64,000 nt of DNA from Buttiauxella gaviniae ATCC 51604 (GTDB lineage Bacteria > Pseudomonadota > Gammaproteobacteria > Enterobacterales > Enterobacteriaceae). Location of the stretch: positions 62,001 to 126,000 of the forward strand of contig NZ_LXEP01000004.1 of NCBI RefSeq assembly GCF_001654835.1, in the 5' to 3' direction. A program made the translations under genes and the position numbers. Shown here piece after piece: positions 33,492-51,257 of this stretch. Each line of letters starts with the position of its first letter. The stretch's first letter is position 1. The notes under the pieces were generated by a model that made no database searches, was not told the origin of the DNA, and saw only the letters and a program-made list of their open reading frames with translations.

Positions 33492-34049
33492 TTACCATTG
33501 GTAATAAATATGTTCCGCGTGATCACGCGCTGGGGCTTCGTCGCCTTCAAGACGCGCGGCAACAGTGAGTGCAAAATCAAACACTTTACCTAACCCTTTC
33601 CCACTTATCAGATTGCCATCTTCGACTACGTCAGCATCAACATATTCACCGTCCGTCACCTGCTGCCACAAATCACCAGAACAGACGTAGCGGCGGCCTT
33701 TAAGCAAACCGTTACCACCCAGGACGCGTGCCGCAGCAGAGCAAATCGGGCAGATAAACTTGCCAAGATCGTCATGGCGACTCACGAAAGCAATAACGTT
33801 AGCGCTTTGGGCTAGAAAGACACTGCCTTCCGGGCCACCGGGGAGCACAACTGCGTCAAAGGTTTTATCAAAACATTCACTTAGCGTAGCGTCTGCCACC
33901 ATCGGGATATCGTGATAACTCACTACCGCGCGTGTATCGACGCAAGAAAGGGTGCGCACGTTAATTTTTAAACGACGTAGAATATCAATGGTAACAATGG
34001 CTTCCCCTTCTTCAAAACCCGGGGCTAGCAAAACTGCAACAGTTTTCAT
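33492..34049 (-). CDS. DJ-1/PfpI family protein
   Basis: A cytosolic protein of 185 residues of the DJ-1/ThiJ/PfpI superfamily, near YajL and DJ-1 rather than the peptidase-like PfpI. The nucleophile elbow Cys103 (CPICSAAARVLG) and the partner Glu (GFEEGEA, residues 12-18) are present. Family members act as glyoxalase III-type enzymes, chaperones or thiol sensors on reactive carbonyls. It is the last gene of a four-gene run with DUF2264, an MFS symporter and GH88 hydrolase (44-base gap). I infer it may act on the reactive keto-aldehyde sugar acids this operon would create. The ATG ending at 34049 follows GGAG; two further in-frame starts lie upstream. Confidence 0.8.
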   Translation of the reverse strand: MKTVAVLLAPGFEEGEAIVTIDILRRLKINVRTLSCVDTRAVVSYHDIPMVADATLSECFDKTFDAVVLPGGPEGSVFLAQSANVIAFVSRHDDLGKFICPICSAAARVLGGNGLLKGRRYVCSGDLWQQVTDGEYVDADVVEDGNLISGKGLGKVFDFALTVAARLEGDEAPARDHAEHIYYQW

Positions 34050-34093
34050 TTTACTCTCCATGTAGCCCCCGCGGTCTTGCGGGGGCGCAAAAC

Positions 34094-35299
34094 TTACCAA
34101 TAAAGACTCCACACTTGTCGCACACGTATAAGTGCTTCAAGGTAGAAATAGTCACCCCAACTACAACATTCATCGACACCTTTGCCGCTTGCCATGTGAT
34201 ACACAGAATGTTTCAGCAAGCCCTCACATGGCTCATCGTCCCGCGCCAGATAGTTATCAGTGAGTGACTGTATAATACGCAGCGCCATTTCTTCATAATG
34301 GGCACGATGTTCATCCAGCACGGGCAATGTTTTCACCAGTTCCAACAAACCACAGGCAGTGATTGCCGCAGCTGAACTATCACGCACCGCATCCGTTCCG
34401 AGCAATGCTAAATCCCAGTGGCAAACATCATCTTCCGGCAAGCGGTTGATGAAGTAATGCGCCAGGCTACGGGTGAGGTCCACCATGCTTTTATCACCGG
34501 TATACAAATAAGTGAGCAAGAAACCGTAAATCCCCCACGCTTGCCCGCGCGACCAGCATGAGGTGTCGCTATACCCCTGATGTGTATTACCAAATCGCGG
34601 CTCACCGGTTATCACATCCATATAATAAGTATGGAAAGTTGAAGCGTCCGGGCGAACGATATATTTCGCGGCCTGCTGCGCATGTGCGGTAGCAGCCTGC
34701 GCGTAACGCGGATCTCCAGTTTGCTGGCTTGCCCAATAAAGCAGCGGAAGGTTCATATTACAGTCAATAATCATCCGCCCCTGTTGTTCTGGATCATTCA
34801 AATCTCCCCAGGCCTGGATGATTTTCGCCACCGGGTTATAGCGCTCCATCAGAATATCAGCCGCTTGCAGCGCGATTTGACGGGCTGTTTCATTGCCAGT
34901 TAAACGCCAGGCATTCACACACGACAACGAATACAGAAAGCCCAGATCATGAGTGGCTGTTTCGATACGCTTGTCTAAGCGCTCCGCAAAAGATGGCAAA
35001 TAACGCTCTGCCGCCTGGCGATATTTGTCATCTCCAGTCATCTCCCACGCAAGCCACAGTTGGCCTGGCCAGAAGCTAGTCGTCCACTCGACGTTGTCGG
35101 TCGGCTGCCATTTACCCCCTTCACAAGCTTCGTTAGGGAATTTGTTCCCGACGATGGCAATAGTTTTATCCAGCTTTTTTGTCACGCTATTAAGCGCATT
35201 ATCAAGCTTACGTTTTAGGGCCAGACGGTCTACCTGATGCAATTCAATAGGGCGCAGTGGCTCGGTCACCACATTTTCAGTGACTAAATTACAGGTCAT
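34094..35299 (-). CDS. Unsaturated glucuronyl hydrolase, GH88
   Basis: A cytosolic protein of 401 residues with an (alpha/alpha)6 barrel pattern. GH88 enzymes hydrate and release the 4,5-unsaturated uronic acid at the non-reducing end of lyase products. The two key aspartates are visible: Asp118 in THDLGFLY and Asp179 in MIIDCNMNLPLLYWA. Their spacing of 61 residues equals Asp88-Asp149 of the Bacillus GL1 enzyme. WSRGQAWGIYGF and CHWD are further family signatures. AAAGGAAA precedes the ATG. It sits 14 bases after the symporter gene. The natural oligosaccharide (glycosaminoglycan-, gellan- or glucuronan-derived) is unknown. Confidence 0.88.
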   Translation of the reverse strand: MTCNLVTENVVTEPLRPIELHQVDRLALKRKLDNALNSVTKKLDKTIAIVGNKFPNEACEGGKWQPTDNVEWTTSFWPGQLWLAWEMTGDDKYRQAAERYLPSFAERLDKRIETATHDLGFLYSLSCVNAWRLTGNETARQIALQAADILMERYNPVAKIIQAWGDLNDPEQQGRMIIDCNMNLPLLYWASQQTGDPRYAQAATAHAQQAAKYIVRPDASTFHTYYMDVITGEPRFGNTHQGYSDTSCWSRGQAWGIYGFLLTYLYTGDKSMVDLTRSLAHYFINRLPEDDVCHWDLALLGTDAVRDSSAAAITACGLLELVKTLPVLDEHRAHYEEMALRIIQSLTDNYLARDDEPCEGLLKHSVYHMASGKGVDECCSWGDYFYLEALIRVRQVWSLYW

Positions 35300-35313
35300 A
35301 ACGTTTCCTTTAA

Positions 35314-36594
35314 TTAATTTTTTGCCGGCTCAACCGGAGCGGTGTCTAAAGCGGATAAGAACGTATTGGATTCATCGCGTTTTGACTGGCAGCGCGAGAG
35401 AGTGAAAGCAGAGATCAGAGTGAATATCAGTGCGCAACATCCCATCATTAAGTAGGTGTGCTCGAAGCCGATTTTGTCGTACAGGTAACCCGCAGGCGGT
35501 GCCACCACAACTGAGCCGACATAAATCATCGCCTGATAACCCAGTAAATACATGGTGGCATTGATTTTCTTATGGAAATGCTCGGCGATATATTTGAACA
35601 CCGAGATTAGCAACAGGGCAATTTCAACACCGTAGAACGGCTTGATGATTGAAATCACCAGCGGGTCGGAGGTCAGCCCCGAAGCAATCAAGCGTAACCC
35701 CACTACGCAGCCGCACAACAACAACCCTTTTTTTGCACCGTAGTGATTCACCAGCAGCGGGATGAACATCATCATCACGAACTCCATGCCGGACTGTACT
35801 GTGCTGAGGTAGCCGTACCATGCGTTGCCCTGCTCTTTGGTATCGAAGAAAGAGACGAAGTAGCGTGGGAATTGCTGTTCAGCAACAAACATCATCCACG
35901 CGACACCTGCCACATACAGGCTGAACATCCAGAATTTGCGGTTTTTCAGTAGCATCAGAACATCAGCGAAAACGATTTTATTCGCTGAAATCACATTGTT
36001 ATTACGCAGTTGTTCATCACCAATTTTCAGGCTAATCAGCACCAACAGCATTAATACGGAGGTGGTACTACTGACGATGAAGTTTGCCAGCGGCGTGTAG
36101 TTGAAAAGCAGACCTGAAACTGATGCCGCCATTGCCCAACCAAGCGATCCCCACATGCGAATGCGCCCAAACTCCAGACCATACAATCTGCTAAAGCGGT
36201 CGGCATAAGATTCAGAAGCCGCAACACCTGCGTACCAGCCGAGGCTCAGGTAAAAAGCACCGATCACAATGCCAAGGGTGGTATGCGTCAGCAGCAACGG
36301 TTGATAAACCGTGACAAAGAACGGCGCCATCAGTGCCGAAATCGCGCAGACAAAATAGAGCAGCCACTTGCTCATACCAATTTTGTCCATGATGTAGCCA
36401 TAGACCGGTTTCATGACTACCGCAAAGACGCCATTGATAGCAAAAACACTGCCAATGGTGATGCTGTCCAGCCCCACTTTCTGGCTCAACCACAGAGCAT
36501 ATAACCCGAAGCTTGAGGACCAGGTGAAAAAGTAGAGAAAGATAAAACTGCTCATTTTAATCTGTGCGGTACGCGTTGGTGTCGAGATGTTCAT
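35314..36594 (-). CDS. LacY-type oligosaccharide:proton symporter (MFS, OHS family)
   Basis: An inner-membrane protein of 426 residues with 12 predicted helices. The N-terminal FIFLYFFTWSSSFGLYALWL, NGVFAVVMKPVYGYIMDKIG and the helix with GRIRMWGSLGWAMAAS are hallmarks of the oligosaccharide:H+ symporters LacY, RafB and CscB. LacY relatives usually take neutral di- or trisaccharides; pairing with GH88 suggests an unsaturated uronate oligosaccharide here. ATG overlaps the DUF2264 stop by 4 bases, so they are coupled. A longer reading with 28 additional residues would lie inside the upstream gene and lacks support. Confidence 0.85.
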   Translation of the reverse strand: MNISTPTRTAQIKMSSFIFLYFFTWSSSFGLYALWLSQKVGLDSITIGSVFAINGVFAVVMKPVYGYIMDKIGMSKWLLYFVCAISALMAPFFVTVYQPLLLTHTTLGIVIGAFYLSLGWYAGVAASESYADRFSRLYGLEFGRIRMWGSLGWAMAASVSGLLFNYTPLANFIVSSTTSVLMLLVLISLKIGDEQLRNNNVISANKIVFADVLMLLKNRKFWMFSLYVAGVAWMMFVAEQQFPRYFVSFFDTKEQGNAWYGYLSTVQSGMEFVMMMFIPLLVNHYGAKKGLLLCGCVVGLRLIASGLTSDPLVISIIKPFYGVEIALLLISVFKYIAEHFHKKINATMYLLGYQAMIYVGSVVVAPPAGYLYDKIGFEHTYLMMGCCALIFTLISAFTLSRCQSKRDESNTFLSALDTAPVEPAKN

Positions 36595-38423
36595 GGGTGT
36601 TTCTCCAGAATAAGGAGTTTGCTTTGATTGCCCATCACCAGGCGTACAACACCCTCGCTGATAATGGCTTGCGGGCAAGATTGCGCATCAAAATCGTCGG
36701 TATCCCCTGCCCAGGTGGCACTGATTAACAGATGTGTGCCGATACTCAGTTCACCTTGCAGCAACGGCACTGCTGCCCGCTCGGCAAAGAGTAGATTGCT
36801 GTTTGGTGGTGTCAGAACTAACTGTGCACTGCGTGATTTCGGGCTTAAACAATAAATGGCGCTGGTATCAGTTTTGGTTGTAAGCAAACAACTCCCCTGC
36901 GTCATGTGTGCTTGTGGAAGCGGACGATTTGGCAGGCTGAACCCTCCTTCCGCACAATCGAGTTCACGCGCCGTTTTGAGGTGATGAACCCGTACTTGCC
37001 AGTCGCCCAACGGCAGTAACCAGGTATCGATATTCACGTCGTGCCACGGCAGCCAACGGCTGAAAATCATTCCGTCTGCGGTACTGATTTGCTGGCATTC
37101 ACGGCGTCCACGCCAATAGTTATCTTTCTCGGATAACAGCAACATCGAGTCAGGTGCCGCATGATTCAGCGCGTAGCGACCACGCTCAATGGTGAATCCA
37201 TAACGAGTTGAATAGGCAAATTTGCAGTATTTAGCTTCGGTATTCACGAAGTTATTTAGCTCAAGCTGCCCGGATGTCAGCATCCATAAATGGTGCTTTT
37301 GATGAACCAGAATTTGCGACGCATGGGGAATGCTATGAGGCGTTTCACGCTCAGGTAACGGCATTTCCTCTGCTTGCCAGAAGGCATTTTGTTCGCTCAA
37401 CGCCAGCACCAGCATGGTTTTCAGACCCCAGTAAGGGGAACCCGGCGCGTTGTAATCTTCCGCCATTATTAGGTTGGGATAGCTGTAGCCAACACTCAGC
37501 ACACCGTCACGATCAAACAATGGCTGTTGCAACCACCAACGCAAATGACGCAACACAATTCCTTTCACTACTCCAGGTTCGTAGACTTCCAGACCTGCAA
37601 ATGCAGCAGCACTCCAGAATGCGGCCTGCGCAAAGCGATAAGTCAGGCTGCGACCAAAAGGAATAGCTGCACCATCGTCGGCAAAAAAATGGATGAAATC
37701 TGCGGCAAAGAGTGTTGCGCGCTGGCGTAGTTTTTTGCAGCGCTGCGGGTCAACATCGGCCATTAATTTGGAATAGATGAGACTATAGAAATGGAAGCCC
37801 ATCGAAATATAGTAATCACGTGGTCGGCCTGGGCCATCGGAATACCAACCGTCACCGAGGTAATAATGCTCCATGGCGTCGAAATGCTTTTCCAACGTAT
37901 CGGCATTGTTCAACATCCCGCAGTGGTGGAAACCGACCTGCACCAGAATTGGGAAGAAATGCCAGTTGTTGTCAGGTATATCCAGAGTTTCACTCTGTTT
38001 CAGCCATTGCCAGAGGTTGTGTTTCTCCTGTTCATTAAAGTGCGCCAACAGCGGTTTATGGGCGACTGCCAGTAAGAGTCCATATGCTGCCATTTCGACA
38101 ATCCGTTGATCGTATGCCGCGGCTTCTCCCCAATACTCGGCATGTTTAGGGTCTGTGCCATTTTTAATGGCCTGAATATAAAAAGAGAACTCTTCAGGCT
38201 CGTACCCACCCGCCAACAGTGGCGTTACACCCCACAGTAAACGAGAGAAAGTTTCCATATTGGCTACTTGCTGGCCGTAATGGGCGGTGAAATTAGCAAG
38301 GTCTACGCCACTGGCCTCTTTTTTAAAGAATGGCGAAACGGCATTTAATAATTCATTCACCAGTTTATGAAGATCTCCCCGACTTTTAAGGGGGTTATTC
38401 AGGGTAATGTTTTCAGGTTGCAC
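36591..38423 (-). CDS. DUF2264 family protein, putative carbohydrate-active enzyme
   Basis: A cytosolic protein of 610 residues without signal peptide. The first 400 residues resemble DUF2264 proteins, with Trp- and Tyr-rich helices suggesting an (alpha/alpha) barrel (NNWHFFPILVQVGFH, YYLGDGWYSDGPGRPRDYY, CKFAYSTRYGF); a beta-rich C-terminal part follows. DUF2264 genes accompany GH88/GH105 hydrolases and lyases in polysaccharide loci, but no activity is firmly known to me. First gene of the operon, with GTG start and GGGAGG upstream, divergent from the AraC-type regulator. Acid residues in DGWYSDGPGRPRDYY are candidates for a catalytic site. Confidence 0.75.
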   Translation of the reverse strand: MQPENITLNNPLKSRGDLHKLVNELLNAVSPFFKKEASGVDLANFTAHYGQQVANMETFSRLLWGVTPLLAGGYEPEEFSFYIQAIKNGTDPKHAEYWGEAAAYDQRIVEMAAYGLLLAVAHKPLLAHFNEQEKHNLWQWLKQSETLDIPDNNWHFFPILVQVGFHHCGMLNNADTLEKHFDAMEHYYLGDGWYSDGPGRPRDYYISMGFHFYSLIYSKLMADVDPQRCKKLRQRATLFAADFIHFFADDGAAIPFGRSLTYRFAQAAFWSAAAFAGLEVYEPGVVKGIVLRHLRWWLQQPLFDRDGVLSVGYSYPNLIMAEDYNAPGSPYWGLKTMLVLALSEQNAFWQAEEMPLPERETPHSIPHASQILVHQKHHLWMLTSGQLELNNFVNTEAKYCKFAYSTRYGFTIERGRYALNHAAPDSMLLLSEKDNYWRGRRECQQISTADGMIFSRWLPWHDVNIDTWLLPLGDWQVRVHHLKTARELDCAEGGFSLPNRPLPQAHMTQGSCLLTTKTDTSAIYCLSPKSRSAQLVLTPPNSNLLFAERAAVPLLQGELSIGTHLLISATWAGDTDDFDAQSCPQAIISEGVVRLVMGNQSKLLILEKHP

Positions 38424-38534
38424 AATGTCCTCCCGCCAGACACGAGAATATTATAAGTTGTTGTTATTAATATTCGTCTTCGCACTGCTTATGTGCGTTG
38501 AGGCAAAGAGTAGTCGCTTTTATTCCTGGCTCAG

Positions 38535-38550
38535 AGTGAGCAGCATCACA
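38535..38550. promoter_or_regulatory. CRP-like site in the divergent regulator/DUF2264 promoter region
   Basis: AGTGA-GCAGCA-TCACA: one mismatch to the CRP core, placed between the DUF2264 operon and the regulator gene, 103 bases before the regulator ATG. Confidence 0.55.
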
Positions 38551-38652
38551 AAAATAAACCGTTATTTCATTTTCACTGGATTTTTCAATTTGCGAGGGTA
38601 ATAAATTACAAATCATGGCGTAAAAATTTAAATTTGTTGTCCTGGAGGGGAA

Positions 38653-39504
38653 ATGAGTGAACCACAATTGATGGAGAGAATTACACTCGACAGCCAGGTT
38701 ATCTCATTTCACCGCCTGCGAGCGTCCAGCGCCAGGTATTATCACTGGCACCAATGCGTTGAGTTTCTCTATATTTCAAAGGGCTACGGAATCGTTGTGG
38801 TGGACAACCAGCATTACACCGCAAGGCCCGGGCGACTTTTTATCTTCCCACCTTTTCGGCTACACAAGGTTCATGTCGATGCCGATGACAAAAACCAGTA
38901 TCACCGCACAACCATGCACATTGAGCACTCTTCTGTTATCAGTACCTTGTATGGCTTTCCACGCCAGCAGGCTCAATTTTCTGCCCTCGCCGCAAGCAAC
39001 GTTCCGGCACAAATTTACGATTTAAGTGAGCAGGCCGATTATATGGAAGTGATTCTCGAGCAGTTCGACAAACTCGACCCCACGGAGCACTCCACCGCCA
39101 GCGACGTTGCGTTTATGGTGATGCAAATTATGGCCTTCCTGCCCGCTCAACCGCAGCTATTTATCCCGCAGCAACAGACTGTTGCATCACGCATCATGCA
39201 GTGGGTTGAGAGTAACTATAGTGAGAAGTTTTCACTGGATGAGCTGGCGCAATCCATTGGCTTATCACGCAGCTATACCTCGCGGATTTTTCGTCAACAA
39301 ACCGGCGGCAGTATTCATGAGTATTTGCTAACGAGACGCATAAAGAAAAGTTGTGATCTATTGCGCACCTCACCATTAAGCATCGAAGCTATCGCCCAGG
39401 AGGTAGGGTTCATAGAAGTGACCTACTTCATCACCTGTTTTAAAAAAATGATGGCCCAGACACCATTGCAGTATCGTAAACGGTCACGAGCTCATTCAAT
39501 TTAA
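38653..39504 (+). CDS. AraC-family transcriptional regulator of the uronide operon
   Basis: A protein of 283 residues: an N-terminal cupin-like sensor (HWHQCVEFLYISKGYG, then RPGRLFIFPPFRLHKV, about residues 30-75) and a C-terminal double helix-turn-helix of AraC/XylS type (about 185-280, FSLDELAQSIGLSRSYTSRIFRQ and LSIEAIAQEVGFIEVTYFITCFKK). This is the architecture of sugar-responsive activators. CTGGAGGGG precedes the ATG. It is divergent from the DUF2264-MFS-GH88-DJ-1 operon and probably controls it, and perhaps the nearby ABC and lyase operons as well. Confidence 0.85.
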   Translation: MSEPQLMERITLDSQVISFHRLRASSARYYHWHQCVEFLYISKGYGIVVVDNQHYTARPGRLFIFPPFRLHKVHVDADDKNQYHRTTMHIEHSSVISTLYGFPRQQAQFSALAASNVPAQIYDLSEQADYMEVILEQFDKLDPTEHSTASDVAFMVMQIMAFLPAQPQLFIPQQQTVASRIMQWVESNYSEKFSLDELAQSIGLSRSYTSRIFRQQTGGSIHEYLLTRRIKKSCDLLRTSPLSIEAIAQEVGFIEVTYFITCFKKMMAQTPLQYRKRSRAHSI

Positions 39505-39855
39505 GGGCTCAAATATGATCTGACACAATAAACCACCTCATAGCAGGTTAATTATTCAGTGATGAATCACAGTTTTGGTCATTTCACTTAAATTATTTAA
39601 TATAGATAAACCAGGAGATAATTATTTAATTAGTCTTTTTTAATATTTCCTGTTGAATAAATTTGTAAATAAGAATGAAACACCAGAATCAACTGTTTTA
39701 TTGATAACCCTAAAGAGGTACTATTTTTTACAACGCAGTCAGGACGCGGACTCACAGGACATGGATACAATCTTTTTTATCTATATACCCGTCATATTTC
39801 ATGTCATACAAAATTCTAATCCTAACCGATGTTCCGGCTAAATAAGGAAATTATC
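39505..39855. other. AT-rich gap between the regulator and ftnB
   Basis: 350 bases without a gene. TATACCCGTCATATTTCATG at 39785-39804 resembles the first 20 bases of the ERIC repeats elsewhere in the window and may be a remnant. No terminator is obvious. Confidence 0.4.
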
Positions 39856-40359
39856 ATGGCAACTTCCGGCATGGTTCAAAGTCTCAACTTACAGATAAAT
39901 CGTGATTTTTATTCCTCAAATCTGTATTTACAGTTGAGTCACTGGTGCTCAGAAAAGAGTTTAACTGGCACGGCGAATTTTTTAAGAAATCAGGCTCAAT
40001 GTAATGTTACGCAGATGATGCGTATATTTAATTTTATGAAACAAGCGGGCGGCACTCCCATTGTAGGGACGATTGAAGCGCCAGAAAGCGAATGTGACTC
40101 TTTGGAAACACTATTTGAAAAAACGGTTGAAGATTATCAGCAGCGCTGCGCCACACTGACTAAATTGACCGCTGAAGCAACAGCATTGAAAGATTATTCC
40201 ACCCTCACGTTCCTGAAAACCATGGATCAGGAACAACAAGACGAAGGCCTGTTGCTCAACACCATTCTTGATGAAGTACGCAGTGCTCATAAAGCCGGAT
40301 TGTGTATGAGCCAAACAGATGAGCATCTGACAAATTTAGTGAATCATCAACTGCACTAA
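39856..40359 (+). CDS. ftnB: Ferritin-like protein FtnB
   Basis: A four-helix-bundle ferritin-like protein of 167 residues, matching E. coli FtnB in length and C-terminus (LVNHQLH). FtnB is the ferritin paralogue that lacks a normal ferroxidase centre. Compared with FtnA, Glu17, Glu50 and His53 are Asp17, Asn50 and Gln53 here, so the first iron site is altered at three positions. ATG with AAGGAAA upstream. In E. coli it follows araF; here it is embedded between two blocks of the uronide locus. Confidence 0.92.
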
Positions 40360-40370
40360 GTCTCATTATG

Positions 40371-40397: not shown

Positions 40398-40432
40398 GCG
40401 AAAAAAATGTTGTTCCCGTTAATCCGCCTTAG

Positions 40433-41569: not shown

Positions 41570-41579
41570 CTATCGCTCC

Positions 41580-42668: not shown

Positions 42669-42678
42669 GAGATTCTCC

Positions 42679-43518
42679 TTATCCTTTGACCGCGCCGGAC
42701 ATAATCCCGCGGTTGAAATGTTTTTGCAGACCGAGATAAACGATGATGCTTGGCAACATCGCCAGAAGCGTAATGGCTATAAATATGTTCGGAGTGATAC
42801 TTTCATCGGTACGCAAGCTGCCGAGAATCACTGGAATAGTGTTCAGGCTGTCGTGGTTGACGACAATTAGCGGCAGCAGGTACTGGTCCCAAATCATGAT
42901 GAAGCCAAACGTGACTACCGTGCCTAGAGCAGGTTTCACCAACGGCAAAATGACGTGGAAGAAGATTTGCCATTCATTCGCACCATCGATGCGTGCGGCC
43001 TCTTCTAGCTCTTTGGGAATAGCTGCCATGAATTCGCTCAGCACGAAGATGGAAAATGCCCAACCCACTACCGGCATGATCATCCCTAGATAGGTGTTAT
43101 AGAGCGACGCATCAATCAGCGGCAGCTTCCAGTTGATTATCATGTACAGTGGAATAGCGATTACTTCTTCCGGCAACATCATGGTGGAGAGGATCACAAG
43201 ACTCACCAGCGACACGCCGATGAACTTTTTACGCGCCAGGGCATAAGCAGCAAGCGCACTCACCGACACCTGCAAAATGGTGCCGACAAAAACGACAATC
43301 ATTGAGTTAAGCAGATATTGCCAAACGCCAATGTCGTTCCAGGCGAATATAAAATTCTCCAACGAAAACTCATTAGGCCATGCCAGCAACTCGCCCGGTT
43401 TGACCGGTGCCCCGCTAAATGCAGTAGCAACAATGCCCCAGAATGGCCCAACGAATACAATCAGCAACAAGCCATAAATCATCCAGCGGCCTGCGATATC
43501 CCAACGTTTACCTAACAT
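42679..43518 (-). CDS. CUT1-type sugar ABC transporter permease (MalG-like)
   Basis: An inner-membrane protein of 279 residues with six predicted helices. The EAA loop reads ELEEAARIDGANEWQIFFHVILPLVKPA, the contact site for the ATPase. The ATG ending at 43518 is preceded by AAGGAG, and the gene lies 10 bases after the partner permease. Confidence 0.92.
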   Translation of the reverse strand: MLGKRWDIAGRWMIYGLLLIVFVGPFWGIVATAFSGAPVKPGELLAWPNEFSLENFIFAWNDIGVWQYLLNSMIVVFVGTILQVSVSALAAYALARKKFIGVSLVSLVILSTMMLPEEVIAIPLYMIINWKLPLIDASLYNTYLGMIMPVVGWAFSIFVLSEFMAAIPKELEEAARIDGANEWQIFFHVILPLVKPALGTVVTFGFIMIWDQYLLPLIVVNHDSLNTIPVILGSLRTDESITPNIFIAITLLAMLPSIIVYLGLQKHFNRGIMSGAVKG

Positions 43519-43528
43519 CGGTGGCTCC

Positions 43529-44407
43529 TTAATAACGGGCAATACGCTTTTTCAACGTGAGGTGACAAATCGTCAACAGCACGGTGAAGGCGAATAACAG
43601 GAACGACACCGCCGAAGCATAGCCGTAGTCAAATTGCTCAAATCCGAGTTTGTAGATATGGGTCATGATCATTTCAGTGGCGTTAGATGGCCCACCGCCG
43701 GTTGTGGCATACACTTCTGCAAACACACGGAACCCACGAATAAAGGAGAGCATCAACACTACTGAAATCGCCGGGATCATCCCGGGCAGCGTGACGTAAC
43801 GCAGACGGTTCCACCAGTTCGCGCCATCAACGTTTGAGGCGTCATATAAATCGCGGCTAATGCCTGCCAGGCCTGCGATAAAGATAACCATGTTGTACGG
43901 CACCGCTTTCCAAATATGCAGCAACATGATGACCCACAGAGCCTGGTCTGAACTTGCAAGAAATCCCTGGTCGGCAATACCAAACCAGCTCAGGATGTGG
44001 TTCATCACACCGTTCGGAGTTGGGTTAAACAAGATTCGCCACATTTCGGCGACGATAGCCGCACTGGTTACCGCGGGCAGGAAAATGGCGGTGCGGATAA
44101 AACGCAGATGACGAGCGGGCCCTTCAAGTAACATGGCGAGGAAAAATGCCAGTACCGCTCCAACCACCATGGTCACCACGACATAAAGGAAGGTATTGAA
44201 TACCGCCGCATGGAGTTCAATATCGGCAAAAGCGCGGGCAAAATTGGTAAATCCCACCCATTCGTCTGGTTGATTGAAGTTCACCTTGTAGAAACTCATC
44301 ACCAGGCCTTGCAGCATGGGAATAAATTTAAACCAAGTGAAGATGACCAGTGCCGGAGCAAGAAACATCCACGGCACCAGATTCCGTTTCTGGCGAGAAG
44401 TTAACAT
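43529..44407 (-). CDS. CUT1-type sugar ABC transporter permease (MalF-like)
   Basis: An inner-membrane protein of 292 residues with six helices. The EAA loop is DLYDASNVDGANWWNRLRYVTLPGM. It pairs with the downstream permease to form the channel. The start is either ATG at 44407, chosen here with AGAGTG upstream, or an in-frame GTG at 44419. There is a 130-base gap to the binding-protein gene, containing inverted sequence that may serve as a transcript-stabilising hairpin. Confidence 0.9.
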   Translation of the reverse strand: MLTSRQKRNLVPWMFLAPALVIFTWFKFIPMLQGLVMSFYKVNFNQPDEWVGFTNFARAFADIELHAAVFNTFLYVVVTMVVGAVLAFFLAMLLEGPARHLRFIRTAIFLPAVTSAAIVAEMWRILFNPTPNGVMNHILSWFGIADQGFLASSDQALWVIMLLHIWKAVPYNMVIFIAGLAGISRDLYDASNVDGANWWNRLRYVTLPGMIPAISVVLMLSFIRGFRVFAEVYATTGGGPSNATEMIMTHIYKLGFEQFDYGYASAVSFLLFAFTVLLTICHLTLKKRIARY

Positions 44408-44536
44408 CGTTATTTTCACTCTATAAAGATTCAGGCTGTGACTGAGTGTCAGGTGACGCTTCGCTTACCCGATCTACATTTCGGGGCATGCAGATGGATA
44501 AGCGTAAGAACCGTTCACCGAATTCAAAAATCAAAC

Positions 44537-45829
44537 TTATTTCGCCAGCACCTGCTGTTTATCAAGCTCGGCATTGACCTTCTCATTGGTCACTTTCAGT
44601 TCGGCTGCAATATCACCATTACAGTCAGCCAGAATACGGTTGAAGCCATCGGCGGTTATCTGACGAATTGGCGTCCAGTTAGGCACCTGCGGCACATAAC
44701 GCCCGTGTTCAGCGTAAAGTTTGGCGAAGGTTGCCCAACGTGCATCGTCATATACAGTCTGGATATCAACCTGTTTATTCACAGGTAAGCGCACCACCGG
44801 CATGTGTTTCGTGCCTTTGCCCATACCGATTTCTTGCCCTTCCTGGGAGATCATAAATTCGATGAACTTCCGCGCGGCTTCTTTATTCTTGCTACTTTTC
44901 ATCATGAAGACAGTGGTGCCTTCGGCAAGAGTCGCACTACTTTTCGGCCCTTCGAGGGTCACGACTTCAAACTTGTCTTTACCAGGATCTTTATCAAACA
45001 ATGCAATGTGATACGGGCCGGTGAAGAACATACCGGTCTGGCTTGAGCGGAATGATGGGATAATGTCTGCGGTTGTCGCGTTGATAGCACCAGGCTGAAC
45101 AACTTTGTCGCACAGCATTCCTCGCATAAATGCCATGGTTTCAGCGGCAGCTGGCTCATCAAGCGAGGCTTTGAATTTACCCTTGCCTGATTCGCGAATG
45201 AAATCACCACCTGCCTGCCATAAAAATGCGCTCATAAACCAGCTGGCGTAACCACGCGTGGTGGAACCCGGCAACAAAAAGCCGTAGGTATCGTTTTTAC
45301 CATTGCCGTCCGGGTCTTGTGTGGTAAAGGCTTTAGCCAGCTTTGCCACATCACTCCAGGTTTTGGGCTCAGGCATACCCAGTTTTTCACGCCAGTCTTT
45401 GCGAACAAACAGCGCAAAGGTTTGGGCAGAAGTGGGCACCCCATAGAATTTCCCATCGGTGTAGCGAGTACTTTCCCAGGCTGTAGGATAAATATTTTCG
45501 CCACCTGCAATGGATTTCGGATCTATTTCATCAGCTATTCCGAGTTGGATGAACTGACCAATGGCTACCGCATCATTGAAGATCAGATCGGGCAATGCGT
45601 TGCCTGCAGCGGCACGAGCAAGGCGCTGTTCAAAGTCTGTCGTAGCATTAAAATATTCGATTTTAATGCCTGTCTTCTTCTCAAAAGTTTCAGCCTCTTG
45701 CTTGTAAATATTTTTAGAATCATTGCTGGCACGGATCCAGACATTTAGTGTTTCAGCCGCAAATGTTTGCGAAGCACTAAAACCGAGGGCGGAGATCAGT
45801 AATACGGATTTTAATTTTGTGGAAAACAT
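44537..45829 (-). CDS. CUT1-type solute-binding protein
   Basis: A protein of 430 residues with signal peptide (MFSTKLKSVLLISALGFSASQTFA, then AETLNVWI). It is an SBP_bac_1 family periplasmic receptor for oligosaccharides. DPDGNGKNDTYG near residue 190 is an EF-hand-like calcium loop also seen in alginate- and pectate-oligomer-binding proteins such as AlgQ; this supports an anionic ligand but does not prove it. First gene of the ABC-lyase operon, transcribed away from the secreted-lyase operon. Confidence 0.9.
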   Translation of the reverse strand: MFSTKLKSVLLISALGFSASQTFAAETLNVWIRASNDSKNIYKQEAETFEKKTGIKIEYFNATTDFEQRLARAAAGNALPDLIFNDAVAIGQFIQLGIADEIDPKSIAGGENIYPTAWESTRYTDGKFYGVPTSAQTFALFVRKDWREKLGMPEPKTWSDVAKLAKAFTTQDPDGNGKNDTYGFLLPGSTTRGYASWFMSAFLWQAGGDFIRESGKGKFKASLDEPAAAETMAFMRGMLCDKVVQPGAINATTADIIPSFRSSQTGMFFTGPYHIALFDKDPGKDKFEVVTLEGPKSSATLAEGTTVFMMKSSKNKEAARKFIEFMISQEGQEIGMGKGTKHMPVVRLPVNKQVDIQTVYDDARWATFAKLYAEHGRYVPQVPNWTPIRQITADGFNRILADCNGDIAAELKVTNEKVNAELDKQQVLAK

Positions 45830-45985
45830 TTATATTCACGTCCTTATTTTAAGAGATTTGATTATTGAGGAAATGGAGTGAAGCAGATTATTTCAAGAAT
45901 GAAAAAAGGCTGCGGAGTAATTAAATAGAATGCATGAGGTAAAAACAACGGGGCGAAACAGAAATAGCGTTTCATAATGTAGAAG

Positions 45986-46001
45986 TGTGCTTCAGGTCAC
46001 G
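45986..46001. promoter_or_regulatory. CRP-like site near the ABC operon promoter
   Basis: TGTGC-TTCAGG-TCACG, two mismatches to the CRP core, about 160 bases before the binding-protein start. Just beside it GAAAC-N9-GTTTC (45955-45973) forms an imperfect operator-like inverted repeat. The surrounding 45830-46271 is AT-rich, with no gene seen. Confidence 0.45.
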
Positions 46002-46161
46002 CAGCAAAGTCAGTCAAAAACCTCAGTTAAAAACATAACCATTAAATTCAATGAATTACATAAATAAAAAATACTCGTAACATTTGAAAAATAATTTAAA
46101 ACCATTGATTTACGTGACTCCAGCCTCACTTTCTGAGGCTATTTACCCTTGAAAGCGTTAA

Positions 46162-46177
46162 TTTGATGTGAGTCACA
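46162..46177. promoter_or_regulatory. CRP-like site between the two uronide operons
   Basis: TTTGA-TGTGAG-TCACA, one mismatch to the CRP core; extended AT-rich flanks are typical. It could serve either divergent operon. Confidence 0.55.
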
Positions 46178-46271
46178 TAAAAATTCATTCTGTCTCTTAC
46201 ACTGCGCACTCGGCATCATAAATATTATTCCCAATCTTATATTTTACGAATTAACAGTGCCTCTATAGATA

Positions 46272-46398
46272 TATACCCAAAATAATTCAAGATGCAGGAA
46301 GGCGGCAAGAGAACGAGTCCCGATGAGCTTACTCAGGTAAGTGATTCGGGTGAGTAAACGTAGCCAACGCACATGCAACTTGAAGTATGACGGGTATA
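46272..46398. repeat. ERIC element, 127 bp
   Basis: Begins TATACCC and ends GGGTATA, exactly 127 bp, the standard ERIC (IRU) length. The centre carries the diagnostic pairing GAGCTTAC ... GTAAGTGATTCGGGTGAGT found in ERIC primers. It lies 38 bases before the secreted-lyase gene, so it falls in its promoter or leader. The copy at 51259 is in inverse orientation. Confidence 0.88.
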
Positions 46399-46436
46399 AA
46401 TAACCAGATATTATTCCATTGGTGGACGGAGAAAAT

Positions 46437-47675
46437 ATGCGCCCGATGAAACCCATTTTATTGTCTTGCTTGTCATTACTTTCGTTAGCGGTTGCTAGCG
46501 TATTAACAGCATCGCCACTGTACGCCGCTGATGCACATCCATTGCAAATCAAACTTGATGATTTACGTTACAGCCAACAACAGCTTGCGGCGAGAAACCC
46601 TGAGTTTCTTGGCGCATATGAAAAGCTCATTGCCGGGGCTGACAAAGCGCTGGGCAAACCACTCTACTCGGTTATGGATAAGACTCTGACAGCCGCAAGT
46701 GGTGACAAACATGATTACTACAGCTTCCCTCCATACTGGTGGCCCGATCCGAACAAAAAAGATGGTCTGCCTTATATTCGTAAGGATGGTCAAACCAACC
46801 CGGATGCCAACAGCGACGCCACGGACAAAAAGCGCCTGGTGAATATGAGCAATGACGTTTGGACACTGTCGCTTGCATGGCAATTTACCCAAAAGCCAGC
46901 CTATGCCGAAAAAGCACGTGACCAGTTACTGAACTGGTTCGTTAATCCTGATACGCGCATGAATCCTAACCTACAACACGCTCAGGCAATCCCAGGGATT
47001 AATGACGGACGTGGAATTGGACTCATCGACAGCCGCACATTGGTGGAAGTCATCGATGCCGTGGAGTTACTACGCCCGGCTAACGTGATTAGTGATGATG
47101 AGTATCAAAAAATTAAACAATGGTATGGCGATTTCTACCACTGGATGACAACCAGCCAAAATGGTTTTGAAGAAGATAATTGGCACAACAACCACGGCAC
47201 TTACTTTGATTTGCAGGCAGCGTCTTTTGCACTGTTTAGTGGCGATCTCGCTGCGGCTAAAAAGCGTCTGCAAATCACCCAACTGCGTCGTATTCCCGCT
47301 CATTTCGACAGAGATGGCCGCCAGATGGCAGAAATTGAGCGTACTCGTCCTTGGCATTACAGCAATTTCCACCTGGAAGCCTACAACAAACTTGGCCGCC
47401 TGGGAGAAATCGCGCAAGTGGATGTCTGGAACTTCACCCTTGATGACCGAAGCCTGCGTAAAGGTTACGCCTATGTCGCCAACTATGTTCACAGCAATGA
47501 GCCATGGCCGTGGAAAGATATCGACAAAATGGATGATGAAAAAGCGTTAGTGAACATGGTCAGTGCGGCTCGTGCATGGCCAGATGACAGCGCCTTTGCC
47601 GAAAAAGCACAATGGCTAATGGCAAAATATCCTGATGATATCTCCCATCTTATTACCCCATTAAAACAACACTGA
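46437..47675 (+). CDS. Secreted alginate-lyase-family (PF05426) polysaccharide lyase
   Basis: A protein of 412 residues with a signal peptide (cleavage after ASPLYA, about residue 30), so periplasmic or exported. It shares the catalytic blocks of the cytosolic paralogue: SGDKHDYYSFPPYWWP, GLPYIRKDGQTNP, RMNPNLQHAQAIPGI, WHNNHGTYFD and ERTRPWHYSNFHLEA. This is the alginate lyase superfamily with PL5 and PL38 members. The likely role is to fragment a polyuronide before import by the ABC transporter. I chose the ATG at 46437 because GGAG lies 5-8 bases before it and it leads directly into the signal peptide; in-frame TTG and GTG codons lie upstream. The next gene starts 20 bases downstream. Confidence 0.85.
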   Translation: MRPMKPILLSCLSLLSLAVASVLTASPLYAADAHPLQIKLDDLRYSQQQLAARNPEFLGAYEKLIAGADKALGKPLYSVMDKTLTAASGDKHDYYSFPPYWWPDPNKKDGLPYIRKDGQTNPDANSDATDKKRLVNMSNDVWTLSLAWQFTQKPAYAEKARDQLLNWFVNPDTRMNPNLQHAQAIPGINDGRGIGLIDSRTLVEVIDAVELLRPANVISDDEYQKIKQWYGDFYHWMTTSQNGFEEDNWHNNHGTYFDLQAASFALFSGDLAAAKKRLQITQLRRIPAHFDRDGRQMAEIERTRPWHYSNFHLEAYNKLGRLGEIAQVDVWNFTLDDRSLRKGYAYVANYVHSNEPWPWKDIDKMDDEKALVNMVSAARAWPDDSAFAEKAQWLMAKYPDDISHLITPLKQH

Positions 47676-47695
47676 AAGAGAGTAAGGATCGAGCG

Positions 47696-49714
47696 ATGAA
47701 GCAGTTCACCACGCAACAACTTATTCTCCTTCGCCAACGCATGACCCAGCAGCCTGAAATAGTGGCGCAGTTGATTGCCGAAAATACCGTGGTGCTTAAC
47801 AACCCGGTCAAAGTGCCGGAAACCGCACGGGCAACCTGGAACCTCTACTATTTCTGCCCGGATCACGGAGTCAGACTGAAGTGGGATCGTCACACCCCAA
47901 CCTCCCATTGCTGCCCGGTTGATGGGCAGTCGTTTAGCGGAGAACCCTATGACGGAGCCTGGTGGCGCGAGCTAAATGGGCTGAATGCCAAAGCCTGCCA
48001 CCAGCTTGGCTTGCTGTGGCAACTCACAGGTGAACAAGGTTATCTGGATAAGGTCCGCGAACTATTAATGCGCTATGCCGAGTTTTACCCGGGCTACGAA
48101 ATCCACGGTGGTATCCCTTACAACGGCCCCGGAAAAATGAACGCACAGACGCTGTGCGAAGCCAATTGTATGCTGGATTTCACCCTCGGCTATGATTGCA
48201 TCGCTGAAGCTTTGTCCGCGCAGCAGCGTGAATACATTACTAGCCGTTTATTACGCGAAGGTGCGCAATTCCTAATGGCCCATCGCACTGCCCAATTGCA
48301 TAACCATGAGGTAAAAATCGGCTGTGCCATAGGGGTTCTCGGCTTTGTTCTCGAAGATGAGGCCTTGCTGGAATTTGCGGTAAATCAGCCTTACGGGCTG
48401 CGCTATCAACTTGAACATGGTCTGTTTGAAGAGGGACTGTGGTTTGAAGGGTCCATTCATTATCACTTCTACGCACTACAAGGATTCCTGGCATTCGAAA
48501 AGTTGGCTATTGGTTCGCGCTGGAGCTTGCTTGATGAGCCTTTCTATAAAAAAATGCTCAGCTTCCCTCTTGCGCTGCTGATGCCCGATGGCACCTTTCC
48601 ACGTATCAATGATTGTATCTATGGCCAGGAAAAGCTCGATCATAGCCATCTGTATGAGTTTGCGTGGTATTACTACCAGGATGAGCGATACGCCGCGGCG
48701 CTTAAGGCTATTCGCCAGCAGTATCCAATGCCCCATTTTGATACCTTTGTTTACGACTCGCCACTGCCAGAGAAACTGCCGGAACTGATTCCTGAGTGTC
48801 ACCTACACGCTCCAAATTGCGGCCTGACTATCTGGCGCAACTCGCAAAAAAAACGCGCATTACTGATAAAACACACGCCATTCGGCGGTGAACATGACCA
48901 CTATGACCGCCTGAATATCCTGCTTTTTAATGGTGGGAAAGAGATCCTCCCCGATCTGGGCACCACCGGTTACGGCGCGCCCATGCATTATGCGTATTAC
49001 AAAAATAGCGCCACCCACAATACGATCACGGTAAATCAAACCAACCAACCGCCTGCTGTGCCTGTGGTGCATCATTATCACGAAAGTGATGCATTTTGCT
49101 GGCTGGATACTGGAGTAGACTGGCGGCAAATTCCCCCGGATCTCGATAGCCATACGCGTGTGCAGTGGGATAGCGAAGCCTGGCGCGATGTGCGTTTTCG
49201 CCGTCGTTTACTGTGGCTGGATAACGCGATTATTGATATCAGCACTGTGCAAAACCCGCACAGCCAACAAATTGACTGGACGTTGCATCTTCTGGGTAAA
49301 GCGCTGGATAGCGAGGGAGAATGTGTGCAATTTAGCTCTCAAGGCCCTCTGGTGATTATGAAGCATGCCCGTTGCGTACAGTTAACCAATAGTCAGCCAC
49401 GTCACTTCGCCACCCCTCATAATGGACAAGCGTTATGGCTGTACGGTCATGCTGAGTTATGGCAAGGAAATGCTCCTGATAACCCGGCGGTTCAAGATCT
49501 GAGCTATCTGGTTCTACGTAGCAAAGAACAAACCTCTCAGTTCATTTGCGTCTGGGATTTTGACCATCAACAACCGATCACCGATATGCACGTCACGCCG
49601 GATTCTAACGGTATGACAATCCAACTCAGACGTGGAGAAAGAACCTTACTAGTTGATATTTGTGAAGAATATGCAGTACTCCCACAACTTAAAACCTCAC
49701 ATATTCCCTTTTAA
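47696..49714 (+). CDS. Heparinase II/III-like lyase, cytosolic
   Basis: A protein of 672 residues without signal peptide. An (alpha/alpha) toroid N-terminal half (LHNHEVKIGCAIGVLGF, EGSIHYHFYALQGF) is followed by the heparinase II/III beta-sandwich (GGEHDHYDRLNILLFNGG, LPDLGTTGYGAP, NSATHNTITVNQ). Conserved His, Tyr and Arg residues in these blocks fit the PL12/15/17/21 group, which contains exo-acting oligoalginate and heparinoid lyases. Together with its operon partner it suggests complete depolymerisation of a uronic-acid polymer. The N-terminal 100 residues contain CPDHG and CCPVDG, a possible zinc-type Cys cluster unusual for this family. AAGGAT precedes the ATG. Confidence 0.82.
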   Translation: MKQFTTQQLILLRQRMTQQPEIVAQLIAENTVVLNNPVKVPETARATWNLYYFCPDHGVRLKWDRHTPTSHCCPVDGQSFSGEPYDGAWWRELNGLNAKACHQLGLLWQLTGEQGYLDKVRELLMRYAEFYPGYEIHGGIPYNGPGKMNAQTLCEANCMLDFTLGYDCIAEALSAQQREYITSRLLREGAQFLMAHRTAQLHNHEVKIGCAIGVLGFVLEDEALLEFAVNQPYGLRYQLEHGLFEEGLWFEGSIHYHFYALQGFLAFEKLAIGSRWSLLDEPFYKKMLSFPLALLMPDGTFPRINDCIYGQEKLDHSHLYEFAWYYYQDERYAAALKAIRQQYPMPHFDTFVYDSPLPEKLPELIPECHLHAPNCGLTIWRNSQKKRALLIKHTPFGGEHDHYDRLNILLFNGGKEILPDLGTTGYGAPMHYAYYKNSATHNTITVNQTNQPPAVPVVHHYHESDAFCWLDTGVDWRQIPPDLDSHTRVQWDSEAWRDVRFRRRLLWLDNAIIDISTVQNPHSQQIDWTLHLLGKALDSEGECVQFSSQGPLVIMKHARCVQLTNSQPRHFATPHNGQALWLYGHAELWQGNAPDNPAVQDLSYLVLRSKEQTSQFICVWDFDHQQPITDMHVTPDSNGMTIQLRRGERTLLVDICEEYAVLPQLKTSHIPF

Positions 49715-49720
49715 ATTGCT

Positions 49721-49740
49721 GGGCGGATGCTTCTCCGCCC
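49721..49740. terminator. Stem-loop after the heparinase-like gene
   Basis: GGGCGGA, 6-base loop, TCCGCCC, eight bases after the stop. It resembles a shortened REP palindrome. No T-run, so read-through into the transporter gene is possible. Confidence 0.5.
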
Positions 49741-49810
49741 AACTCAATTAAACGCTTAATTTGCCAGGTTGGCATAGATACCGTCCATTAAATTGTTGAT
49801 TTTTTGTTAT

Positions 49811-49831
49811 AATCAATTGTTTTAATTGATT
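49811..49831. promoter_or_regulatory. Palindromic operator-like site before the Dcu-type gene
   Basis: AATCAATT-GTTTT-AATTGATT is a perfect 8-bp inverted repeat about 85 bases before the start codon, with TATAAT overlapping its left edge (49807-49812). It suggests a separate regulated promoter for the transporter gene. The regulator is unknown. Confidence 0.4.
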
Positions 49832-49913
49832 TTTAACAAATCCGATCTGCGTCTCAATGGTAATCCTTACAATCTGTAATGCTTTATACGATTGAATTTT
49901 AAAAGGGATTGTC

Positions 49914-51257
49914 ATGATTACTATTGAATTTATTGTCATTATTTTATGCCTGCTGGTCGGGACTCGCTTTGGCGGGATGGGGCTTGGTTTAATCAGTGGA
50001 ATTGGGTTGTTTATCCTGACTTTCATTTTTGGCCTTGAACCAGGAAAGCCGCCCGTTGATGTAATGCTCACCATTCTTGCCGTAATCGGTTGTGCAGCTA
50101 CATTGCAAACCGCGGGCGGCCTGAATGTCATGATGCAGTTTGCTGAACGCCTACTGCGTAAACACCCGCAACACATCACACTGCTTGCTCCTTTCACTAC
50201 CTGGATGCTGACGTTCCTGTGTGGAACCGGGCATGTGGTCTACACCATGTTCCCGATTATCGCCGATATTGCGCTAAAAAAAGGGATTCGCCCGGAGCGC
50301 CCAATGGCGGTGGCATCTATTGCTTCGCAGATGGCGATTACCGCATCGCCTGTCTCCGTCGCCGTAGTTTCCCTAATCTCAATTCTGGCCGCTAACCATG
50401 GCATTGGTCATGCCTGGGGCATTCTCGATATTCTCTGTGTTTCCGTTCCCGCATCGTTATTTGGCGTGTTAATTGCTGCACTGTGGAGTTTGCGTCGCGG
50501 TAAAGATTTGCAGGACGATAAAGAGTTTCAGGAGAAGCTCAAAGACCCAAAACAGCGTGAATTTATTTACGGCAGCAGCGAAACGCTGATGGACCAGGTG
50601 TTCCCAAAACAAGCCTACTGGTCAACCTGGATTTTCTTTGCTGGGATCCTGGTGGTGGTCTTATTGGGCGCTATTCCGACACTGCGTCCAGCGTTTGAAA
50701 TTAAAGGCGCGTTAAAACCGCTATCAATGAATCTGGTTATCCAGATGATGATGCTGATTGCGGGTGCCGTAATGTTGATAGTCTGCAAAGTAAATGCATC
50801 CGCTATCTCTAATGGTGCGGTATTTAAAGCCGGGATGGTGGCGATTTTCTCGGTGTTTGGTGTCGCCTGGATGAGTGATACCTTCTTTCAAGCACACCTT
50901 GAAGAGCTGAAAATAGCACTGGAAGGCGTGGTGAAAAGCCACCCGTGGACTTATGCCATCGTGCTGTTTTTGGTTTCTAAACTGGTAAATAGCCAGGCGG
51001 CTGCGTTAACAGCTGTGGCACCGATGGGATTGATGCTGGGTGTTGAGCCGAAAATGCTGATTGCCTTCTTCCCGGCATCTTACGGCTACTTTGTCCTACC
51101 TACCTATCCGAGTGATCTGGCATGTATTGGCTTTGACCGCTCGGGCACCACGAAGATTGGTAAATTCATCATCAACCATAGCTTCATTTTACCAGGGTTG
51201 ATTGGCGTGAGCTGTGCTTGTGCGGCGAGTTACTTGCTGGTGATGACGTTCTTCTAA
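49914..51257 (+). CDS. Dcu-family (DcuA/DcuB) dicarboxylate transporter-like protein
   Basis: An inner-membrane protein of 447 residues with the DcuA/DcuB signature (GGLNVMMQFAERLLRKHPQHITLLAPFTTWMLTFLCGTGHVVYTMFPIIADIA and SIASQMAITASPVSVAVVSL; here cited in parts: GTGHVVYT, ASQMAITASPVSVA). DcuA/B exchange fumarate, aspartate and succinate in anaerobic E. coli. Here it is the third gene of a lyase cluster and may export or import an organic acid made from uronates; this is inference. AAGGGATT precedes the ATG. The ERIC repeat starts one base after its stop codon, and the last half of the protein is standard for the family (PTYPSDLACIGFDRSGTT). Confidence 0.85.
   Translation: MITIEFIVIILCLLVGTRFGGMGLGLISGIGLFILTFIFGLEPGKPPVDVMLTILAVIGCAATLQTAGGLNVMMQFAERLLRKHPQHITLLAPFTTWMLTFLCGTGHVVYTMFPIIADIALKKGIRPERPMAVASIASQMAITASPVSVAVVSLISILAANHGIGHAWGILDILCVSVPASLFGVLIAALWSLRRGKDLQDDKEFQEKLKDPKQREFIYGSSETLMDQVFPKQAYWSTWIFFAGILVVVLLGAIPTLRPAFEIKGALKPLSMNLVIQMMMLIAGAVMLIVCKVNASAISNGAVFKAGMVAIFSVFGVAWMSDTFFQAHLEELKIALEGVVKSHPWTYAIVLFLVSKLVNSQAAALTAVAPMGLMLGVEPKMLIAFFPASYGYFVLPTYPSDLACIGFDRSGTTKIGKFIINHSFILPGLIGVSCACAASYLLVMTFF

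Follow-up and report, generated by a model that had tools for sequence, protein, structure and literature searches.

Two adjoining cassettes around ftnB in Buttiauxella gaviniae: a predicted glucuronate dehydratase route and a probable polyuronate lyase route

Two cassettes on either side of ftnB

We analyzed the interval 33492–51257 of a 64,000-nucleotide stretch of the Buttiauxella gaviniae ATCC 51604 genome (contig NZ_LXEP01000004.1; the whole stretch is called the window below), and found that two separate cassettes of putative uronic acid catabolism genes adjoin there on either side of ftnB and do not form one locus. Block A (33492–39504) consists of an AraC-type regulator gene divergent from genes for a DUF2264 protein, a LacY-type symporter, a GH88 enzyme and a DJ-1 protein. 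Block B (40433–49714) encodes two lyases of the polysaccharide lyase family 38 (PL38) type, a CUT1 importer and, as we predict, an exolyase of PL17-like type. None of the enzyme families is new. With reasonable though not strong confidence, we explain the two cassettes as a glucuronate dehydratase route (block A) and a route for glucuronan (block B).

An earlier reading, made from the sequence only, had described one two-block locus carrying one set of functions. The observation was real, but the single-locus reading was not supported, because the blocks behave as independent cassettes that differ in their distribution. All genes named in that reading were found where it had placed them, with open frames and with domains scoring above the Pfam cut-offs, and the analysis supported uronic acid catabolism, the position of catabolic genes around ftnB and the naming of glucuronan among the candidate polymers. 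The gene inventory was incomplete in one respect: the DJ-1/PfpI protein at 33492–34112 had been overlooked. We did not find these gene combinations described in one open-licence literature library, where ‘DUF2264’ itself gave no match, and by blastn in distant mode neither the DUF2264 nor the PL17-like gene had a match in E. coli (collection of 5,426 complete genomes).

The distribution within the genus was examined by tblastn in 12 Buttiauxella genomes, our own included, the matches in the relatives being counted as alignments and not as singly examined frames. The AraC and DUF2264 genes were near full length in 11 of the 12. In genome G001 the DUF2264 match covered the first 65 residues only, and no PfpI match was obtained; for G009 the sequence taken in ends inside the LacY gene, so that GH88 and PfpI lie beyond view. 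All seven genes of block B were present in nine genomes, G001 with its truncated DUF2264 gene among these, whereas G007 and G009 showed no tblastn match to block B. In G004, block B is reduced to a scar (L034:7508-8608) in which the remnants of two genes are joined, the cytosolic PL38 gene and the PL17-like gene each being represented by its C-terminal part. Block A is thus kept without a complete block B in 3 of the 12 genomes. Both blocks are complete in 8 of the 12, and the pattern that the sequence-only reading had named as its own refutation, the operons never occurring together, was not what we observed. The PL17-like protein has its nearest named relative in B. noackiae (93% identity).

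Sites without the blocks were also visible. The araF–ftnB spacing is 0.8–1.1 kb in L042 and L043, where neither block is present, and the ftnB–Dcu spacing is 0.2–0.4 kb in L040 and L043. The gene of the DcuA/B-type C4-dicarboxylate transporter (49914–51257, + strand; NF009136, 705 bits against 396) was found in all 11 genus relatives, and it stands beside ftnB without the block B lyases in L040, L043 and L044, the last two of which represent two other genera. The earlier reading had counted Dcu as part of the set; since its distribution does not follow the lyases, it was rejected as a member. Dcu and ftnB (39829–40359, + strand; PF00210), which lies between the blocks and belongs to neither, are older neighbours outside the cassettes. 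In the G009 stretch (L041) the close ftnB and block B are both missing, and Dcu directly adjoins the AraC gene of block A.

Outside the genus, an alignment of the PL17-like protein was searched against 84,980 species genomes. This gave 150 relatives, of which 79 loci were taken in; the other 71 lie outside the counts. Block-B-type loci, defined by the presence of the cytosolic PL38 gene, made up 38 of the 79. All seven genes were recovered in 34 of them; in the other four, one to three genes were absent by our open reading frame calls. Thirty-one of the 38 belong to other genera (Serratia, Yersinia, Kluyvera, Raoultella, Klebsiella, Enterobacter, Cedecea and others), and 30 of these 31 lie between other neighbours, with no ftnB in the flanks. 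None of the 79 fetched stretches contained a DUF2264 or LacY gene, the 10-kb flank in those from Buttiauxella reaching the AraC gene only. Conversely, we fetched 20 of the 55 places at which DUF2264 was listed in other genera, and 19 of these 20 loci, all from other genomes of the family, showed the core AraC / DUF2264–LacY–GH88, with the AraC gene next to DUF2264; DJ-1/PfpI is an optional member present in eight. Homologues of the block B lyases, the only lyases looked for there, were found in none of the 20. Thus, outside the genus, neither block was accompanied by the other in the flanks that were fetched. One locus, L159 in Klebsiella aerogenes (LR134124.1), has block A alone (annotated as ugl, lacY_4, yajL_2) adjoining a salmochelin (iro) gene group.

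In a midpoint-rooted tree of the four block B proteins (37 rows), Buttiauxella grouped with Serratia (support 94) and with Yersinia (support 100), while Klebsiella and Kluyvera were separated from it (support 100 in the Shimodaira–Hasegawa-like approximate likelihood ratio test). This placement suggests horizontal gain, and block B was probably acquired. Among the 31 loci outside Buttiauxella, the one block B beside ftnB is that of Raoultella sp. BIGb0138 (L067:490-12028); it is of the Klebsiella side of the tree, and araF and ftnB have no block A between them. This makes the ftnB site a possible hot spot for insertions. On five plasmids of Enterobacter and Klebsiella, a more distant PL17-like gene (43–45% identity; L158) was seen, and the plasmid viewed carries it with a major facilitator superfamily (MFS) transporter gene.

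Block B: lyases, importer and the probable polymer

The minus-strand part of block B contains the genes for a probably cytosolic PL38-type lyase (40433–41569; PF05426, 244 bits), the ATPase of a CUT1-type ABC importer with a TOBE domain (41580–42668; PF00005, PF08402), two importer permeases (42679–43542 and 43529–44419; both PF00528) and the periplasmic solute-binding protein of the importer (44537–45829; PF01547, 131 bits). Divergent from these, on the plus strand, are the genes for an exported, probably periplasmic PL38-type lyase (46419–47675; PF05426, 262 bits) and the PL17-like exolyase (47696–49714; PF07940 and PF05426). A signal peptide starting from M7 was read by eye in the exported PL38 protein and a signal-peptide-like N terminus in the solute-binding protein; none was seen in the sequences of the cytosolic-type PL38 protein and the PL17-like protein. 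The specificity of the solute-binding protein was discarded as a clue to the substrate, as its PDB matches were unspecific (arabino-oligosaccharide and maltose binders among the best 60 of 502).

Most of the length of both PF05426 proteins can be aligned with BoPL38, the alginate lyase of Bacteroides ovatus CP926, and with PDB entry 3nfv. The E values were 3.4e-56 (BoPL38, 8bdq) and 2.8e-72 (3nfv) for the cytosolic-type protein, and 1.6e-46 and 3.5e-70, respectively, for the exported one. The residues H243 and Y298, described as catalytic in BoPL38 (PMC13169297), are kept in both proteins, together with the D and Q at two positions where other BoPL38 entries have a different residue (H221, Y276, Q151 and D85 in the cytosolic-type protein; H259, Y314, Q189 and D123 in the exported one). 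Unlike BoPL38, block B pairs an exported with a cytosolic copy and combines them with a CUT1 importer.

The PL17-like protein matched PDB entry 4nei with E=2e-25, and its residues N203, H204, Y256 and Y432 correspond to N201, H202, Y258 and Y450 of the oligoalginate lyase Alg17c. The first three of these residues are invariant in 21 wider relatives, of which at least 90% also have Y432. A structure model (predicted local distance difference test score, pLDDT, 89) had Alg17c as its best fold match, at 17% identity; Foldseek listed PL17 entries first (14–18%), followed by Dp0100, PL40 and Atu3025 entries, for two of which we assume the family names PL39 and PL15. Although fold and catalytic N/H/Y/Y are shared with Alg17c, the protein scored 97.3 bits in the NCBIfam oligoalginate-lyase equivalog NF042990, far below the cut-off of 1400, and therefore we do not file it as an oligoalginate lyase. 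It also differs from Alg17c in its linkage to uxaC in marine relatives.

This linkage was seen in the 26 non-enterobacterial loci among the 79 (the marine set; some share a species, and uxaC was recognized by similarity to the V. halioticoli gene). L122, labelled Chryseobacterium, was counted as enterobacterial because of its neighbours. uxaC lies near the PL17-like gene in 23 of the 26 loci, and in 19 it immediately precedes that gene in the same orientation; the three without it are L100 and L119, which are short or end at the gene, and L098, which is neither. In plasmids of V. pelagius and V. cyclitrophicus, uxaC overlaps the PL17-like gene by 4 bases, and the pair is surrounded by sodium symporter genes, KdgM and a gene labelled ‘alginate lyase family’. 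Glucuronate isomerase, the uxaC product, serves polymers that leave saturated glucuronate or galacturonate, not alginate. The linkage therefore points to glucuronan, a product of some bacteria and green algae, rather than to alginate, both polymers being named as PL38 substrates in the literature consulted. The polymer of block B is most likely beta-1,4-glucuronan, which we hold to be roughly twice as probable as alginate.

According to the predicted mechanism, the periplasmic PL38 lyase would cut the polyuronate to unsaturated oligomers, the CUT1 importer would take these up, and the cytosolic PL38 lyase and the PL17-like exolyase would convert them to unsaturated monomers and a saturated glucuronate end. 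The possibility exists that block B instead degrades alginate (poly-mannuronate), with PL38 and the importer feeding a PL17-like oligoalginate lyase and the unsaturated monomer then being reduced. Several observations weigh against glucuronan, and some of them favor alginate. In the literature consulted, alginate is the substrate of BoPL38 and of those PL17 enzymes that have been characterised, and PMC4765187 knew in 2016 of no other characterised PL17 lyase that cleaves poly-glucuronate (poly-GlcA). There the H208F variant of Smlt2602 gained poly-GlcA activity (from 2.8 to 77 units/mg), and the PL17-like protein and its relatives keep the equivalent catalytic histidine (H204). PL7-type alginate lyase genes lie near the PL17-like gene in four marine loci. 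The uxaC-linked marine relatives are 46–53% identical, several being from the same species, and uxaC was near the gene in none of the 53 enterobacterial-type loci, B. gaviniae having it elsewhere in its genome. On the other side stand the 23 of 26 marine loci with uxaC, for which alginate offers no evident role, and the low equivalog score. In addition, PL6, PL7 and a dedicated reductase were not found among the 14 window proteins scanned, and hence not the pairing of PL6 or PL7 with PL17 taken to mark an alginate locus. Degradation of alginate is thus rather unlikely, but it is the strongest alternative to the glucuronan reading. A glycosaminoglycan was rejected as the polymer, as no amino-sugar or sulfatase gene is present in the interval.

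Other systems resemble block B. The cellouronate lyases CUL-I and CUL-II of Brevundimonas sp. SH203 act on poly-beta-1,4-glucuronate, and the Brevundimonas genome has one PF05426 protein (PMC5477187); the likeness is one between the activity described for them and that predicted for block B. The reference list of the same paper cites an exo-type cellouronate (poly-GlcA) lyase purified from Brevundimonas in 2008, so exolytic glucuronan activity as such would not be new. The KdgM/MFS–PL38–PL17-like cassette of Citrobacter and Enterobacter and the KdgM–‘alginate lyase’–SSS/SSS–uxaC–PL17-like locus of Vibrio also combine a PL17-like lyase gene with a PF05426 or an ‘alginate lyase family’ gene, but differ from block B in having other importers, a KdgM porin in the locus and PL17-like proteins 46–53% identical. 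That KdgM is missing, as the sequence-only reading had stated, holds for the window locus; the sister loci not of the block B type have KdgM in 9 of 41 cases, and three KdgM-family genes lie elsewhere in the B. gaviniae genome.

Block A: predicted glucuronate dehydratase and GH88

On the minus strand, block A encodes the DUF2264 protein (36591–38423; PF10022, 400 bits; PF20938, DUF2264_C, 142 bits), a LacY-type sugar/H+ symporter (35314–36678; PF01306, 348 bits), a GH88 unsaturated glucuronyl hydrolase (UGL; 34094–35299) and, at the end of the operon, the DJ-1/PfpI protein (33492–34112; PF01965, 110 bits). The AraC-family regulator gene (38653–39504, + strand; PF12833/PF00165/PF02311) is divergent from them.

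According to PMC12269599, DUF2264 is the former ‘GH154’, now a family of beta-D-glucuronate dehydratases. The Bacteroides caccae member (BcGDH) is described there as having no glycosidase activity and as dehydrating terminal beta-glucuronate, which primes it for GH88; alanine mutants of ten active-site residues were inactive, on a substrate that its authors call poor. The Buttiauxella protein matched the BcGDH structures 9o4u (E 3.2e-17) and 9nwf (E 3.3e-16) and keeps all ten residues (E57, R61, N152, N153, W154, F157, Y205, R258, Y262 and Y324), which are invariant in eight Buttiauxella sequences. A structure model of the protein had a pLDDT of 36 and was not used. The GH88 protein matched the Bacillus UGL (PDB 1vd5) with E=2.2e-107. 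Its D118 corresponds to the Asp that is Asn in 2ahf, and D179 is a second conserved Asp; we assume that both have their usual roles.

The retained BcGDH residues and the pairing with GH88 suggest that block A dehydrates a glucuronate cap, which GH88 then removes. Most likely, the LacY-type symporter would import a small sugar with beta-D-glucuronate at its non-reducing end (a glucuronate-capped disaccharide), the DUF2264 protein would take water from the glucuronate residue to give a delta-4,5-unsaturated uronate, and GH88 would cleave this to 5-keto-4-deoxyuronate and the free sugar. The symporter scored 418 bits in the galactoside-permease family NF007077 (cut-off 429) and 347 in TIGR00882 (cut-off 220); from its relationship to LacY, our guess for the sugar is GlcA-beta-1,6-Gal. 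The closest described system, BcGDH/BcGH88 of B. caccae PUL25 (PMC12269599), likewise combines a former GH154 dehydratase with a GH88 enzyme that removes non-reducing glucuronate. Unlike PUL25 as described there, block A has a LacY symporter and an AraC regulator and is without PL35, a sulfatase and GH109, and the DUF2264 protein carries an extra C-terminal domain compared with BcGDH.

Such a domain also bears on another explanation, that block A is a general scavenger cleaving aryl or host glucuronides. BT_3677, the founding GH154 member, has a second domain and dehydrates 1-O-methyl-glucuronate (PMC12269599), and the Buttiauxella protein has a C-terminal domain as well. However, the LacY-type porter suggests a disaccharide, and PMC8928768 describes uidA in three other Buttiauxella isolates and ties fluorescence in the glucuronide test to this gene: a B. 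ferragutiae isolate without uidA was negative, although block A is near universal in the genus (the isolate's own genome was not compared). This argues against cleavage of the aryl glucuronide of the test by block A and weakens its reading as an aryl-glucuronidase, so we regard the scavenger role as unlikely and keep to the capped disaccharide. All 29 matches to GH2 N-terminal domains in the 12 Buttiauxella genomes lie in frames of at least 970 amino acids, which is the size of beta-galactosidases. Thus, no GusA-type GH2 enzyme was seen in these genomes, other beta-glucuronidase families not having been searched.

The DJ-1 protein scored 131.5 bits in TIGR01383, ‘DJ-1 family glyoxalase III’ (cut-off 131.25). 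Its closest PDB entry is 4k2h (E=3.6e-89), which we take to be Salmonella STM1931. In a table row of PMC4632510, STM1931 is listed as a ‘putative intracellular protease/amidase’ under the gene name araH, so block A may occupy the corresponding place in Salmonella. Two further GH88-family genes were noted in B. gaviniae: one on the minus strand of the window between argS and flhA/flhB, next to an MFS_2 sugar transporter gene (3765–6505; 391 bits, read as GH105-like), and one on contig 8.

Regulation, association of the blocks and meaning

Both blocks probably feed the 2-keto-3-deoxygluconate (KDG) route, in which their products would enter through KduI/KduD to give KDG; a kduI-family gene and uxaC are present in the B. 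gaviniae genome. For KdgR and the cAMP receptor protein (CRP) we searched for what we take to be their motifs (TGAAAYNNNRTTTCA for KdgR). The divergent promoter region between the solute-binding protein and PL38 genes contains a KdgR-like operator at 45960–45974 (+; AGAAATAGCGTTTCA, 1 mismatch to TGAAAYNNNRTTTCA) and a CRP-like motif match at 46162–46177 (+). With at most one mismatch, a KdgR-like box was found in 25 of the 38 block B regions (1.3 in Markov resamples) and a CRP-like site in 27 of the 38 (0.76), but the regions are homologous and so the Markov expectation overstates the weight of both counts. An exact KdgR-like motif lies upstream of the kduI-family gene, and no UxuR/ExuR operator was found in the 38 regions at up to 2 mismatches. 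In block A, a CRP-like site (38535–38550, +; AGTGAGCAGCATCACA) lies between the DUF2264 and AraC genes, and a CRP-like site with at most one mismatch recurs in 26 of 29 homologous intergenic regions (0.14 in Markov resamples); a KdgR-like palindrome with at most one mismatch was found in 8 of the 29, and it is exact in the diverged cassettes L146 and L147. As the motifs are assumed and the regions related, the site counts are supporting evidence only. Block B is probably under the control of KdgR and CRP.

The two-cassette explanation leaves some observations on the opposite side of the balance. The KdgR-like box of the Buttiauxella block A is degenerate (38555–38569, +; 2 mismatches), and 13 of the 38 block B regions are without one, for a motif that is itself assumed. 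In the tree, one block B labelled S. marcescens (L071) groups with the Klebsiella lineage. Finally, the co-occurrence of the blocks at genome level hints at some functional link that two independent cassettes do not explain.

We examined this co-occurrence in 198 genomes of the family at E <= 1e-50. A DUF2264 homologue was present in 51 genomes, some of these being paralogues, since matches went down to 34% identity; the PL17-like gene was present in 21, and both in 18. The resulting p = 1e-9 against all 198 genomes is too strong, because the set is rich in reduced genomes. With araF as a neutral control (87 genomes, including all 21 with the PL17-like gene), 18 were observed against 11.1 expected (p = 4e-4), and 15 against 9.2 when our own genus was left out (p = 0.002). 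There is thus a modest association of the blocks beyond physical linkage. A single pathway for a glucuronate heteropolymer (a glycosaminoglycan or exopolysaccharide), with the lyases cutting the chain and GH88 and the dehydratase finishing the ends, would fit this 18 of 21, the adjacency of the blocks in Buttiauxella and the action of an Akkermansia PL38 enzyme on glycosaminoglycans noted in the literature, but it is quite improbable, as each block recurs without the other nearby, 3 of 12 Buttiauxella genomes keep A without a complete B, 33 of the 51 DUF2264 genomes have no PL17-like match at this threshold, and neither a hexosaminidase nor a sulfatase was found among the 14 proteins scanned.

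For the family, the two-cassette explanation can be taken further, with a confidence somewhat short of even. The PL17-like protein would represent a natural family of exolytic glucuronan lyases, block B would be a horizontally moving glucuronan cassette of Enterobacterales (Buttiauxella, Serratia, Yersinia, Klebsiella and Kluyvera), and block A would be a second route, widespread in enterobacteria, in which dehydration and not hydrolysis serves to remove glucuronate. A natural exo-glucuronan lyase of known sequence would be of use, as the authors of PMC4765187 had to engineer one. The reading of block A gives a directly testable function to the DUF2264 homologues of the 51 genomes; in a Klebsiella record the genes of the block bear no more than the labels ‘uncharacterized protein’, ‘sucrose permease’ and ‘ugl’. 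If these readings are true, gut and environmental enterobacteria hold two poorly annotated routes to glucuronate-bearing glycans, one a polymer route and the other a dehydratase route that needs no beta-glucuronidase.

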